Shown: positions 16,864 through 22,355 of the stretch, piece after piece
Layout of the letters: every line of letters begins with the position of its first letter
How positions within the stretch are numbered: the stretch's first letter is position 1
From: Campylobacterota bacterium
GTDB lineage: Bacteria; Campylobacterota; Campylobacteria; Campylobacterales; Arcobacteraceae
DNA: 62,499 nt
Reading direction: 5' to 3'
Assembly (NCBI GenBank): GCA_003643835.1
Contig: QMKX01000006.1
Coordinates: forward strand, 1 to 62,499
The notes under the pieces: generated by a model
What the model saw: only the letters and a program-made list of their open reading frames with translations
Databases searched by the model: none
What the model was told of the DNA's origin: nothing
Program-made: the position numbers and the translations under genes

Positions 16864-19512
16864 CTATGGAGTGCAGTTGTTTAAAGTAGGCCAAGTATTG
16901 CCAGCACCTGTAGAGTTGTTATACTCCGCACACCTACCAGCTGACACATTGTCAAGATTCCAAGAGGATAAATCTTGTCCTGCAAAAGCAGTAGCATCTA
17001 AAAACATATAGCTTATCAAGTTTACATTTGTCATGTTCCAACTACTTATATCTTGATTGAAACTTGTAGCACCTGTAAACATAGCACCAAAAGCTGTCAC
17101 ATTTGTTGTGTCCCATTTGGCACCAAACGAGCCGTTGAAATTTGTTGCAAGTGCAAATGCTCCATAAAAACTATTAGCACTTGTCAAATCCCAGTTTATA
17201 TTTTGGTTGAAGCTGGCTGCATTTCTAAGTATTCCACCAAAATCCGCAACATTTGTAGTATTCCATTCTCCTATTGGCTGGTCAAAACTTGAAGCGAGAT
17301 TGAACATATAGTTCATAGTAGTAACACTGCCAGTATCCCAACCACTTATGTCTTGATTGAAAGCAGTTGCACCTTCAAAAGTATTACGCATATTGGTAAC
17401 TTTTCCAGTATCCCAGCCACTTATGTCTTGATCAAAATTTGGGGCATGACGAAACATATATTGCAGTGTGATTACATTTGAAAAATCCCAATTTGAACCA
17501 AATGCGCCATCAAAAGCTGTCGCATTTTCAAACATACCATATGTATTTGTCAAACTGTCAGGAACTGTCCAACTTACATCTTGGTTGAAGCTCGTAGCAT
17601 CTTTGAACATCTCTTTTGTGCTAACAAGACTGCTTGGTTGCCATGCAGATATATCTTGATTGAAACTTGTAGCACCTTCAAATAAATTTGAAAGATATTC
17701 TATAGTTGTCACATTCCAGTCTGCTATGTTGCTATTGAAAGCTGTAGCTTCTTGAAAAGTTGCACCCATACTTGTAGCGCCACTTAAGTCTGGACTATCC
17801 ACTGCTGTGATATTGAAGTTTGAACACCCATAAAAAGCCCTATACATATTGGTCCATGCTATATCGCCCCACTGTTTGACATCAAGAAGTTTATCTTTGT
17901 CTCCACCACCACTAAAGTAGATATGAGGAAATAAACCTTTTATAGCTATAGTTTTTTCTCCGCTACTGCCCGCATAATCACAAGTATAATCACCCGTCTG
18001 TCCTATCACTGTAGCATCAAATGAACCATCAAAAGCACAATCAACTTCGTAGTTGTATGTAGGAGTTGTATGTGTAGGTATTGTAAATTGATCATCGCCT
18101 GAAGTTCCTGTATTGTCTGTCTTGATTTTCATCACAAACACTGTTTCGTCTATATCGTTCACTATTATAGCAAATGTTTCTGTATAATCCAAAACGCCAT
18201 CACTTACTTTTATATTGATACTATATGATGATTTAGTTTCAAAATCAGGTATAGCATTTATCTTTAGGTTTGTGCCGTCTATAGTAAAATTGGCATCATC
18301 TGTGCCACCATCGAAACTATAAGTTAAAGTTCCTGTATTCTCGCCATCGTCTGTAGCACCCAATATGCCTACAACTGTATTAGCCGGTTCATTTTCGTCT
18401 ATAGAACTGCTGGTTATATTTATATCTGTTGGAGCTGTATTTACATCAGTTACATTTATAGTCATAACTTCGGCATAGTCATTTACTCCGTCATTGACAT
18501 TTATTTGTATCTCAAGAGAGTTATCATTTTCAAAATCTATAGCTCCTGCTACTTTCAAAGTTGTACCAGATATAGAAAATAAACTATTATCGGGGCCACC
18601 TTTGCCCGTTTTTAGAGTATATGTGTGGGTATCGCCTGTATCTTCATCGGTGTTTGATAATGTTCCTATATCTGTGCCTGCAGCAGAATTTTCTGCTATT
18701 GTGCTACTACTCAAAGCTATATCTGTAGGTGCTTCGTTTACATCGGTTACATTTATTGTAAAAGCTTTAGAAAAATTTTTGGTTCCCTCATTGACATTTA
18801 CTCGTATCTCAAGTGTTGGGTTTGTCTCAAAATCTATAGCCCCATTTACTTGTAGTTCATCACCAACTATTTTAACTAAACCATTGTCGCCATCTCCATC
18901 TCCTGCTACGAGTGTATATACAGCTGTTTCATTGTCATCACTGTTGTTTGACAAAGTTCCTATAACTGTGTTTGTAGTAGAGTTTTCGGCAACTGTGCTA
19001 CTACTTAGAGCTATATCTGTGGCATTTGGTTTGTCTACAATATCTATATTTATCGTTTGGTTGTCTTCTATACCTGATGTGCTTGTAGCTACTACCAAAA
19101 CTGTATAGTTGTTGTCATTACCAGTATCAGTAGGAACTTCAAAATCTGGAGCATCTACAAATGTAAGTGCTCCCGATGTTATATTTAAGTCAAAGCTTGC
19201 ACCATCGCCACCGCCACCTATGGTGTAGTTGATATCTTCACTACTTGTAGCAGCCACTGTCGTGACTGCTACTTCATTTTCATTTACATTTATAGAGGCA
19301 GTATCACCTCCGCCATTTGATGTGATAACTGGTGTAGGTGTAGCAGATGAGCCACCACCGTCTCCTCCTCCACCACCGCCACCACAACCTATGGTAGCTA
19401 CTGATAGCACACCTGATAGTGTCACTATTTTTGCTTTGTTGGTCAAGTTTTTTAGAAATGAGCTAATCCCCCCCCCGTTGCTGCTTGAACTGTTTTTGAA
19501 CTCTTTTGTCAT
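16864..19512 (-). CDS. Cadherin-like/BspA-repeat surface protein, candidate phase-variable
   Basis: An 882-residue exported protein. After the start come a Ser/Gly stretch encoded partly by nine Gs (residues 13-15), a hydrophobic signal (29-42) ending at Cys43 in ATIGC, then a Gly-rich linker. Residues about 60-460 hold four cadherin-like repeats with recurrent AENS, DFE and INVTDVN(E/T)APTDI motifs. Residues about 560-850 hold BspA/DUF285-type repeats of roughly 24 residues of the form SFNQDISGWDT..VT.M..MF..A. These families act in adhesion or cell contact. The -3 residue of the lipobox (Thr) is weak, so lipidation is probable but not certain. SD AAAAGGAG. Target ligand unknown. Confidence 0.85.
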   Translation of the reverse strand: MTKEFKNSSSSNGGGISSFLKNLTNKAKIVTLSGVLSVATIGCGGGGGGGDGGGSSATPTPVITSNGGGDTASINVNENEVAVTTVAATSSEDINYTIGGGGDGASFDLNITSGALTFVDAPDFEVPTDTGNDNNYTVLVVATSTSGIEDNQTINIDIVDKPNATDIALSSSTVAENSTTNTVIGTLSNNSDDNETAVYTLVAGDGDGDNGLVKIVGDELQVNGAIDFETNPTLEIRVNVNEGTKNFSKAFTINVTDVNEAPTDIALSSSTIAENSAAGTDIGTLSNTDEDTGDTHTYTLKTGKGGPDNSLFSISGTTLKVAGAIDFENDNSLEIQINVNDGVNDYAEVMTINVTDVNTAPTDINITSSSIDENEPANTVVGILGATDDGENTGTLTYSFDGGTDDANFTIDGTNLKINAIPDFETKSSYSINIKVSDGVLDYTETFAIIVNDIDETVFVMKIKTDNTGTSGDDQFTIPTHTTPTYNYEVDCAFDGSFDATVIGQTGDYTCDYAGSSGEKTIAIKGLFPHIYFSGGGDKDKLLDVKQWGDIAWTNMYRAFYGCSNFNITAVDSPDLSGATSMGATFQEATAFNSNIADWNVTTIEYLSNLFEGATSFNQDISAWQPSSLVSTKEMFKDATSFNQDVSWTVPDSLTNTYGMFENATAFDGAFGSNWDFSNVITLQYMFRHAPNFDQDISGWDTGKVTNMRNTFEGATAFNQDISGWDTGSVTTMNYMFNLASSFDQPIGEWNTTNVADFGGILRNAASFNQNINWDLTSANSFYGAFALATNFNGSFGAKWDTTNVTAFGAMFTGATSFNQDISSWNMTNVNLISYMFLDATAFAGQDLSSWNLDNVSAGRCAEYNNSTGAGNTWPTLNNCTP
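19468..19476 (-). repeat. G9 homopolymeric tract in coding strand
   Basis: Nine consecutive Cs on the plus strand (Gs in the coding strand) encode Gly13-Gly15 of the surface protein. The tract is in frame as given. With ten Gs the next codons read GAT TAG; with eight they read GGA TTA GCT CAT TTC TAA. Either change truncates the protein before the signal peptide. It is the longest G/C run I saw in the window. Confidence 0.85.
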
Positions 19513-19556
19513 ATTTAACTCCTTTTAGTTTATTGACTTTTGCCTGTGAATATTCT

Positions 19557-19627: not shown

Positions 19628-19640
19628 AGATAATATAAAC
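19628..19640 (+). promoter_or_regulatory. -10 region of ccsBA
   Basis: AGATAATATAAAC, followed by A-run and AAGGATA. The same 13 bases and the same downstream AAAAAAGGATA recur before yfaZ-like (22404-22416). A start site a few bases downstream would give a leader of about 15 bases to the ATC codon at 19656. Confidence 0.5.
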
Positions 19641-19655
19641 AAAAAAAGGATAAAT

Positions 19656-22355
19656 ATCAAAAATATAACTAAAATTATGTTCTCTTATATCACCACTATA
19701 TCGTTGTTGTCTATATTGGCTGTAGGTGCAGCTGTTGCAACGATATTAGAAAATGACTTCGGCACATCAACTGCTAGGGTGCTTGTATACAACAACATCT
19801 GGTATGAGATAGTGCTTGTATTGGCTATCGTCAATCTAATAGGGGTGATGGTAAGTAGAAAAATGTATAAAAAATTTAACGGCAGAACTGTATTTCATTT
19901 TTCATTTGTCGTCATACTTCTTGGAGCTGGAGCTACAAGATATATAGGATATGAGGGTATTATGCATATACGAGAAGCACAAACCCAAAGCGATATGATA
20001 TCACTTGAGCCATATATACAAGCAACCGTCATAAAAGATGGCAAAAATTATGATACAAAATTCTTGAAAGAGTTTGGTGCTATTGGCGACAATAGTTTTG
20101 AGTATCAAGTCAAATACGGTGACAAACATATGGTGTTGAAAATGAGCGATTATAAGTTCGCAAAAAAAGGCAAAGACGAGATGAACCTCATAGGCACAAA
20201 TGTCACGATAGGCGATGAAACTTTAAATACCAAACTTGTAGGCAAAAGAGGCAATGTAGGCATACAAAGAGAACTGGAGTTCAAAAGTGGCGAAAAAGTG
20301 GTGTTGTCGTATGGCTCTAAGATGCTGTCTGTTCCATTTGCTATCAAGCTAAATGATTTTCAACTCGACAGATACCCAGGAAGCGAAGCACCATCATCGT
20401 ATGCCAGTGAAGTAACAGTGATAGATGGACAGAAAAAAATTGACTATAGAATTTTTATGAATAGCACCTTGAAATATGGTGGATATCAGTTTTTCCAAAG
20501 CTCATACGACCAAGATGAACAAGGCACTATATTGTCAGTAAACAACGACCCTGGAACTGTGCCTACATATATAGGATATTTTCTTTTAGTATTAGGCCTC
20601 TTGATGAATATGTTTGATAAAAAAAGTAGATTTATAAAACTAAGCAAATATATCAAAAACTCAACTGCTATTTTTGTTTTGGTGGCTTTAGGATTTTTGT
20701 CAAAACCACTACAAGCCGATGACAATCGCACACAATATTTTAAAAACTTCAAAGAAAATTCGAGTGAACTTTCAAAAGATTTTGGGCGACTTGTAGTGCA
20801 ATCATCAATGGGACGGATGAAACCTATGGATAGCTTAAACATAGAGATAGTTCAAAAACTGACGAAAAAATCAAGTTTTTTAGGCTTCACAGCAGACCAA
20901 GTAGTATTAGGTATGCTAACAAGACCTGAGATGTGGGGCGATGTGAAGATGATAACTATAAAATCCCCAAAGCTTAAAAAGTTTTTAAATATAGATAAGA
21001 CAAGAAAATATGTAGCATTCAATGAAGTATTTAACGATGGCGAATATCTGCTCGCAAACGAAAGCAAAAAGGCAAATGCCCTATCGCCAAATCAAAGAGG
21101 CACATATGAAAAAGAGATTATCAAAATAGACGAAAAATTATCAATAGCTTTTCAGGTTTATCAGGGTAATCTTTTTAATATCTATGCCAAAGATGGCAAC
21201 AATACAGACAATAAATGGTTCAATCCTATAGACGCTATCAAAAACTTTTCTGGCAAAAACCAAGAAGTTGTAGAGCAAATGACAAGAGGTTTTGTGGGCT
21301 CTGTTGTAGATGAAGACTGGACTAAAGCCAAACAATATCTTGGTTTCATATCAATGTATCAAAAAAAAATAGGCAAAGATGTGATGATAAGCGACAAACT
21401 GATAGACGCAGAGATATTGTTCAACAAACTAGGTCTGTTTCCAAGTCTAACACCTATATATATTGTTCTTGGTTTGATTTTATTTATCATAGCTTTCATA
21501 GGTATATTTAGACAACAAGAGGTCTCAAAAAAGATAACCACCACACTATTTGTTGTGATTAGTTTATTTTTTGCAGCACATACATTTGGGTTAGGTTTAC
21601 GATGGTATATAAGTGGTCATGCTCCTTGGAGCGATACATACGAATCGCTAGTATATATAGCTTGGTCTGCTATGGCTGCTGGGTTGTTTTTCTTTCGCAA
21701 ATCTATATTTGCATTAAGTGCTACCGTTGCTATGGCAGGTATATTTATGTTTACCGCACACTTAAGTGGTATTGACCCACAAATTACTAACTTGGTTCCT
21801 GTGCTTAAGTCTTATTGGCTCACTATTCATGTCTCTATCATCACAGGTTCATACGGATTTTTAGCTTTGTCTGCTATGCTTGGATACACAACATTGATAC
21901 TATTTATCAATAGAAACGACAAAAAACCACTAATAGACAAAACCATATACCAAACAAGTGCTATAGGTGAGGTATCTATCATAATAGGACTATCTATGTT
22001 GGTAATTGGCAACTTTATAGGTGGTGTATGGGCAAACGAATCGTGGGGACGATACTGGGGTTGGGACCCTAAAGAAACTTGGGCTTATGTATCGATTGTG
22101 GCGTATATCATCGTGCTTCACTTAAGATTTATCAAACCATTGAATAATCCTTTTGTATTTGCTGTAGTTTCAACTTTGGCATTTAGCTCAATTCTTATGA
22201 CATATTTTGGTGTGAATTTTTATTTAAGCGGTATGCACTCATATGCTACAGGTGACCCAGTGCCAATTCCAACTTGGGTATATGTGTTGATATTTATCGT
22301 ATTGGCTACTATAATCGCGGCATATCAAAAAAGATATCTAAAAGCGGATTATTGA
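19656..22355 (+). CDS. ccsBA: Fused cytochrome c biogenesis protein CcsBA (ResB-ResC)
   Basis: System II cytochrome c maturation: carries haem to the periplasm and joins it to apocytochromes. N-terminal half is ResB/CcsB-like (ENDFGTSTAR near residue 35), C-terminal half is CcsA-like with WGWDPKETWAY and several membrane segments. First ATG is at 19677, but it lacks any ribosome binding site and would leave no charged residues before the first membrane helix. Seven codons upstream is ATC, placed five bases after AGGA exactly as the ATG of trxB is, giving an N-terminus with Lys2 and Lys6. I chose the ATC (899 residues) as the more likely start; product identity does not depend on this. Confidence 0.9.
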   Translation: MKNITKIMFSYITTISLLSILAVGAAVATILENDFGTSTARVLVYNNIWYEIVLVLAIVNLIGVMVSRKMYKKFNGRTVFHFSFVVILLGAGATRYIGYEGIMHIREAQTQSDMISLEPYIQATVIKDGKNYDTKFLKEFGAIGDNSFEYQVKYGDKHMVLKMSDYKFAKKGKDEMNLIGTNVTIGDETLNTKLVGKRGNVGIQRELEFKSGEKVVLSYGSKMLSVPFAIKLNDFQLDRYPGSEAPSSYASEVTVIDGQKKIDYRIFMNSTLKYGGYQFFQSSYDQDEQGTILSVNNDPGTVPTYIGYFLLVLGLLMNMFDKKSRFIKLSKYIKNSTAIFVLVALGFLSKPLQADDNRTQYFKNFKENSSELSKDFGRLVVQSSMGRMKPMDSLNIEIVQKLTKKSSFLGFTADQVVLGMLTRPEMWGDVKMITIKSPKLKKFLNIDKTRKYVAFNEVFNDGEYLLANESKKANALSPNQRGTYEKEIIKIDEKLSIAFQVYQGNLFNIYAKDGNNTDNKWFNPIDAIKNFSGKNQEVVEQMTRGFVGSVVDEDWTKAKQYLGFISMYQKKIGKDVMISDKLIDAEILFNKLGLFPSLTPIYIVLGLILFIIAFIGIFRQQEVSKKITTTLFVVISLFFAAHTFGLGLRWYISGHAPWSDTYESLVYIAWSAMAAGLFFFRKSIFALSATVAMAGIFMFTAHLSGIDPQITNLVPVLKSYWLTIHVSIITGSYGFLALSAMLGYTTLILFINRNDKKPLIDKTIYQTSAIGEVSIIIGLSMLVIGNFIGGVWANESWGRYWGWDPKETWAYVSIVAYIIVLHLRFIKPLNNPFVFAVVSTLAFSSILMTYFGVNFYLSGMHSYATGDPVPIPTWVYVLIFIVLATIIAAYQKRYLKADY

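Follow-up and report, generated by a model that had tools for sequence, protein, structure and literature searches.

A run of nine G residues near the start of a large lipoprotein gene of an Arcobacteraceae bacterium is most probably a contingency locus that switches a surface lipoprotein on and off at the level of translation (phase variation), a reading to which we assign, from sequence comparison, a probability of about 0.85. The gene is located on the minus strand of a stretch of 62,499 nt (the window), which constitutes the whole contig C6 [GenBank: QMKX01000006.1] of the assembly GCA_003643835.1, a genome of 1.43 Mb in 40 contigs (G000). A first-pass annotation of the window, made from its letters alone, had proposed that the tract works as an on/off switch for a surface adhesin. 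In this work the proposal has been followed up in a set of four genomes of the genus, G000 and the three sister species G001, G002 and G003, in which every tract has been read.

Contingency loci of this kind are recognized by a homopolymeric G/C tract (at least 7-8 residues) near the 5′ end of a coding sequence and above chance expectation, by one-base tract changes that lead to premature stops, by differing tract lengths with ON and OFF states, and by a permissive repair background. The first two properties are found in the window gene itself. Positions 19468-19476 of the plus strand are C9, written CCCCCCCCC, which corresponds to G9 on the coding (minus) strand; the placement of these nine Gs at codons 13-15, claimed by the first-pass annotation, was borne out by direct sequence and translation. 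Addition of one G to the tract gives GAT TAG immediately, and loss of one G gives GGA TTA GCT CAT TTC TAA. Both shifted frames stop 0-5 codons past the tract (at 0 and 4 codons), which is before the signal peptide, again as had been claimed, and well ahead of the lipobox Cys43. The annotation was also correct in calling the tract the longest G/C run in the window: the next longest has six residues, and only 0.008 runs of at least nine would be expected in 62.5 kb under a first-order Markov model.

Differing lengths and both expression states were found at genes built in the same way, with a start, a short leader, poly-G and a signal sequence in this order, and not at an orthologue of the window gene. 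Eleven such genes were tabulated in the four genomes, six ON and five OFF. The ON genes are the window gene (G9), C87 (G9) and C96 (G12) of G001, and C47, C20 and C22 of G002 (all G9); the OFF genes are C36 (G11), C1 (G9) and C13 (G10) of G000, and C16 (G8) and C53 (G18) of G002. Four of the OFF genes remain open past the tract for 188 (C36, to the contig end), 241 (C13), 242 (C1) and 261 codons, each with a chance below 1e-7 at the out-of-frame stop rate of the gene, and the fifth is open for 102 codons to a contig end (chance 6e-5). The long open frames behind the C36, C1 and C13 tracts indicate that these are not decayed genes. Genes with the same leader also differ in state: in sister species the MKNITRQ... 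leader is followed by G12 (ON) in one gene and G18 (OFF) in another, and the MTTN... leader by G11 (OFF), G9 (ON) and G8 (OFF). Stops occur within eight codons past the tract in 21 of 22 alternative frames, where 58% would be expected per frame (P ~1e-4, the paralogs not being independent). The comparison therefore supports the on/off interpretation of the first-pass annotation, with differing lengths and about half of the genes out of frame yet intact.

The closest of these genes, C36:7097, is a paralog of the window gene in the same genome, with 65% identity in the genome search and 63% over the 178 codons compared past the tract. The two differ by 46, 28 and 74 changes at codon positions 1, 2 and 3, which, as judged from the two sequences, is a pattern as in a gene under selection. 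C1:14578 is a lipoprotein gene, and C13:26122 encodes a secreted protein without a Pfam match, in our reading probably an outer-membrane protein.

Pattern searches of G000 revealed nine runs of at least eight Gs, seven of them of at least nine, against 0.18 of the latter expected in 1.43 Mb (P ~1e-9, simple first-order Markov model). Within the family, 19 of 104 genomes have tracts of at least ten Gs, but all four of the genus do. The repair background in the genus appears permissive, as neither MutS1 (PF01624) nor MutL (TIGR00585) was found in any of the four genomes, the controls being positive in 11/14 and 14/14, respectively. A published idea concerning exonucleases was also considered and set aside: the DnaQ-family counts (2-3 in the genus, 4-5 in G016 and G028, and 2 in G007) are so low that they lend it no support.

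The switch would operate as follows. Slipped-strand mispairing during replication would add or remove a G at a rate above that of the rest of the genome. With a length that is a multiple of three (6, 9, 12 and so on) the leader, tract and signal peptide would share one frame, and the 882-aa lipoprotein, with a cadherin stalk and a PARCEL/DUF285 head, would be made and exported. If the tract had any other length, translation would stop 0-5 codons past it, ahead of the signal peptide, and no export would follow; one further slip would restore the ON state. The genus-wide set of such switches would then produce single cells with differing mixtures of surface proteins. Slippage of the window tract at a useful rate, surface display, adhesion and a benefit of switching are our inferences.

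The strongest competing explanation, though an improbable one, is that the leader is flexible, its run of glycine codons static, and any switching too rare to be of use. It would agree with the single tract length known for the window locus and with the other Gly-rich stretches of the gene. Those other stretches, however, are never built of GGG only: they mix GGT, GGC and GGA, and outside the tract GGG accounts for 2 of the 84 Gly codons of the gene. In the remaining genes of the window just 8.3% of Gly codons are GGG, which gives three GGG in a row a chance of about 6e-4 per Gly triplet. A static run is further disfavored by the lengths of 8, 9, 10, 11, 12 and 18 Gs among the same-design tracts, of which five put the intact genes behind them out of frame, by the number of tracts far above expectation, and by the failure to find MutS1 and MutL.

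Three other explanations appear very unlikely. If the tract acted on mRNA, with a RepG-like trans-acting RNA or a G-rich structure tuning translation according to tract length, neither its position inside the reading frame nor the stops in both other frames would be needed. RNA-polymerase or ribosomal slippage, which homopolymers can promote, would give every cell an unchanging, non-heritable mixture of frames, whereas the distinct ON and OFF lengths fixed in different genes and genomes are those predicted by slippage at the DNA level. Finally, the tract lengths, the ON/OFF calls and the contig breaks at poly-G could be artefacts of sequencing or assembly, as might be suspected from the five of nine G000 tracts (at least eight Gs) that lie within ~600 bp of a contig end (C9, C16, C17, C28 and C36; P ~5e-6). 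The window tract, however, is in frame and located mid-contig, leaders with poly-G are found again at corresponding positions in species that were assembled separately, and the contig breaks fit repeated cassettes as well as they fit length mixtures; tracts near contig ends may reflect shared cassettes, length mixtures or sequencing bias.

Several points weigh against the phase-variation reading itself. G003 has no copy of the gene beside ccsB, and none was seen in the 380-480 bp of upstream flank covered in G001 and G002, so that the window gene seems to be accessory. No orthologous copy was found, and the leader MTKEFKNSSSSN was encountered in G000 only. A leader match in G002 was examined as a possible orthologue and rejected, being an unrelated gene upstream of an IF-1-like open reading frame (ORF). 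The locus is represented by one assembly, and a change of length at the window tract would follow only by analogy with the other genes. Errors in individual tract lengths, most of all in those of 14 and 18, are possible because the assemblies are fragmented. In-frame starts past the tract (TTG at codon 23, GTG at codons 30 and 35), none of them with a Shine-Dalgarno sequence, could in principle allow some expression in the OFF state. The surface location of the product and its role in adhesion are putative.

Phase variation by poly-G tracts is already known in Campylobacterota, from the PhasomeIt genome set (PMC6321876) and from Helicobacter canadensis (PMC2823697). Tracts in Campylobacter are most often nine long (53%), and every tract of at least eight in C. 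jejuni NCTC 11168 has varied (PMC6321876). The window locus resembles the poly-G loci of Campylobacter and Helicobacter in the G9-type tract near the start of a gene for an exposed protein, in the truncation caused by one-base changes, and in belonging to relatives within the phylum without full mismatch repair. It differs from them in its occurrence in Arcobacteraceae, in the combination of cadherin and PARCEL domains in a lipoprotein, and in leader cassettes common to several genes. The closest protein parallel to the window gene is provided by the PARCEL lipoproteins of Mycoplasma agalactiae, of which MAG1330 and MAG3260 carry N-terminal poly-G (PMC2996958); these belong to a different phylum. 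In H. pylori a variable G-repeat likewise controls a membrane protein, TlpB, through the small RNA RepG (PMC8295292), but that tract is located in the mRNA leader and read by the RNA, while the gene in the window carries its tract within the reading frame. Arcobacter butzleri RM4018, the best-known member of the family, has been reported to be without poly-GC tracts (PMC2147049). A rich repertoire of poly-G phase variation in a small-genome lineage of Arcobacteraceae is therefore of interest against that description, as is its link to PARCEL lipoproteins, which in a mycoplasma also bear N-terminal poly-G.

The window switch is of a known type, and the more interesting features of the genus are the sharing of cassettes between genes and a second design with the tract in an upstream ORF. 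DNA alignments showed that the similarity of shared-leader genes is confined to their 5′ ends. The loci C26:35077 and C40:11230 of G001 are 100% identical from ~-80 to +100 around the tract and then diverge, the first continuing into a protein without a Pfam match and the second into a Fib_succ_major protein. C87 of G001 and C16 of G002 share 93-95% identity around the tract to ~+94, followed by Fib_succ_major and DUF285 proteins, respectively; C20 and C47 of G002 share 88-97% from ~-140 to +100 before diverging. Three pairs of loci are cassette-like in this sense, with near-identical promoter region, leader, tract and signal peptide in front of different ectodomains. From this 5′-only similarity it appears that the switch moves together with leader and signal peptide. 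We give about even odds to the broader proposal that modular cassettes recombine throughout the genus in front of unrelated ectodomains (PARCEL, Fib_succ_major and others), the window gene included, alongside a second design in which an upstream ORF controls translational coupling. A phase switch as a portable module, with its promoter and signal peptide, becomes testable by sequence comparison and reporters.

In this second design the tract is located in a small ORF of its own. It has been found at C26:32800, C26:35077, C40:11230 and C96:22013 of G001 and at C54:2264 and C62:30514 of G002, and probably also at C16:53 of G000, which is cut by the contig end. At the six loci with a visible next start a single frame runs through the tract, and its TGA stop overlaps the ATG of the following gene (ATGA); by length four of the six tracts are in this read-through frame, those of C54 and C62 being the exceptions. 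Among the complete downstream genes, three encode predicted lipoproteins, and a fourth, at C54, corresponds in G002 to one of these; the product of the C62 gene is a short exported protein lacking a lipobox, and the C96 gene, cut after 20 codons, begins like a signal peptide. A translational-coupling switch is the natural reading of this arrangement as far as the sequences go. In the MK(Y/H)V leaders the motif CTCCTCT or TCCTCT is complementary to the downstream Shine-Dalgarno sequence and is paired with it in one of three minimum free energy structures, while RNA folding of the MKNVK leader gave no anti-Shine-Dalgarno pairing; such pairing could contribute in one leader family, the folding support being weak. 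The nearest precedent found for these loci, though not for the window gene, is the pil1 operon of Streptococcus gallolyticus (PMC3894217), where a change of repeat length also shifts the end of an upstream ORF controlling a surface gene. There the repeats are GCAGA and the control is by transcription antitermination, whereas here the tract is poly-G and the stop of the upstream ORF overlaps the ATG of the gene. The window gene has the tract in its own frame and not in a separate upstream ORF, and the upstream-ORF design is not directly applicable to it.

The product of the window gene is a predicted lipoprotein with cadherin repeats and PARCEL/DUF285 repeats; its features are listed in Table 1. 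The lipobox (LSVATIGC, Cys43) was judged by eye and is followed by a Gly/Ser-rich linker. In a sequence search of the PDB the cadherin part matched CELSR1 (E=1e-17), and no match was obtained for the PARCEL part. The AlphaFold model is of moderate quality (mean pLDDT, the predicted local distance difference test score, of 73; residues 1-165 unreliable), and its top Foldseek matches are tandem cadherins in the PDB (best E 2.8e-14). DUF285 repeats together with the lipobox place the protein among the PARCEL/DUF285 surface lipoproteins; with 178.8 bits against a curated cut-off of 500 it falls outside the Mbov_0838 family (NF045896). A search of genome contigs with the window protein gave only distant PARCEL proteins (from Bacteroidota, Parcubacteria, Colwellia and a lactobacillus) and no near relative. 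Of the "surface adhesin" of the first-pass annotation, the cadherin and PARCEL lipoprotein domains can be upheld, whereas "adhesin" itself is a domain-based guess; "adhesin-like" is a reasonable label on the same basis. The gene is, as had been stated, the only large adhesin-like gene in the window among the large ORFs checked, the others being SecA, ValS, Lon, PBP2, FrdA, a formate dehydrogenase-like subunit and a CcsB-like protein. Its neighbors are housekeeping genes, with guanylate kinase and a PxpC-like gene downstream and a CcsB-like cytochrome c biogenesis gene divergent upstream. Neither promoter-like sites in the region nor terminator-like hairpins were more numerous than in shuffled sequences.

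Table 1 Features of the lipoprotein gene in window coordinates
Feature	Position	Strand	Basis
Whole lipoprotein gene, 882 aa, ON (in frame) in the assembly	16864..19512	-	
Sigma-70-like promoter candidate TTGATA-17-TATATT, tentative	19632..19660	-	10/12 consensus positions
Shine-Dalgarno AAGGAG, 6 nt 5′ of ATG, strong	19519..19524	-	direct sequence
Start codon and 12-codon leader MTKEFKNSSSSN, 5′ of the tract	19477..19512	-	translation
G9 tract, GGG GGG GGG, codons 13-15	19468..19476	-	direct sequence
Remaining signal-peptide region ISSFLKNLTNKAKIVTLSGVLSVATIGC, lipobox TIGC, Cys43	19384..19467	-	translation; paralogs share the layout
Cadherin-repeat stalk, residues ~164-455	18148..19023	-	Pfam PF00028, E=4e-20
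PARCEL/DUF285 repeat domain, residues ~540-882	16867..17895	-	PF03382, E=4e-84; TIGR02167, 56.9 bits (cut-off 30)
Terminator-like hairpin, 13 pairs, T-rich tail, directly 3′ of the stop codon	16823..16855	-	

Tracts in other settings were also encountered. In G000, C17:10 (G12, L115) is at a contig end and its tract lies within an MBOAT O-acyltransferase gene (PF03062); at C28:20963 (G11, L116) the contig ends in a stretch similar to C17, and each of the three frames reaches a stop no more than 15 codons from the tract. At C21:11147 of G002 (L093) a G14 run lies between two genes, ~75 bp upstream of the one that encodes a predicted secreted protein, possibly as a promoter-type tract. In another genus of the family, G028:C1:1523482 (L149) and G088:C3:69029 (L147) are similar genes, TonB-receptor-like by eye; both carry G10, which keeps the frame in one species and breaks it in the other. 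Genome G007 carries two large lipoprotein-like genes, at C12:110895 (G13, L135) and C22:83757 (G10, L137), with poly-G directly after the lipobox, and as assembled neither of the two is in frame with its start.
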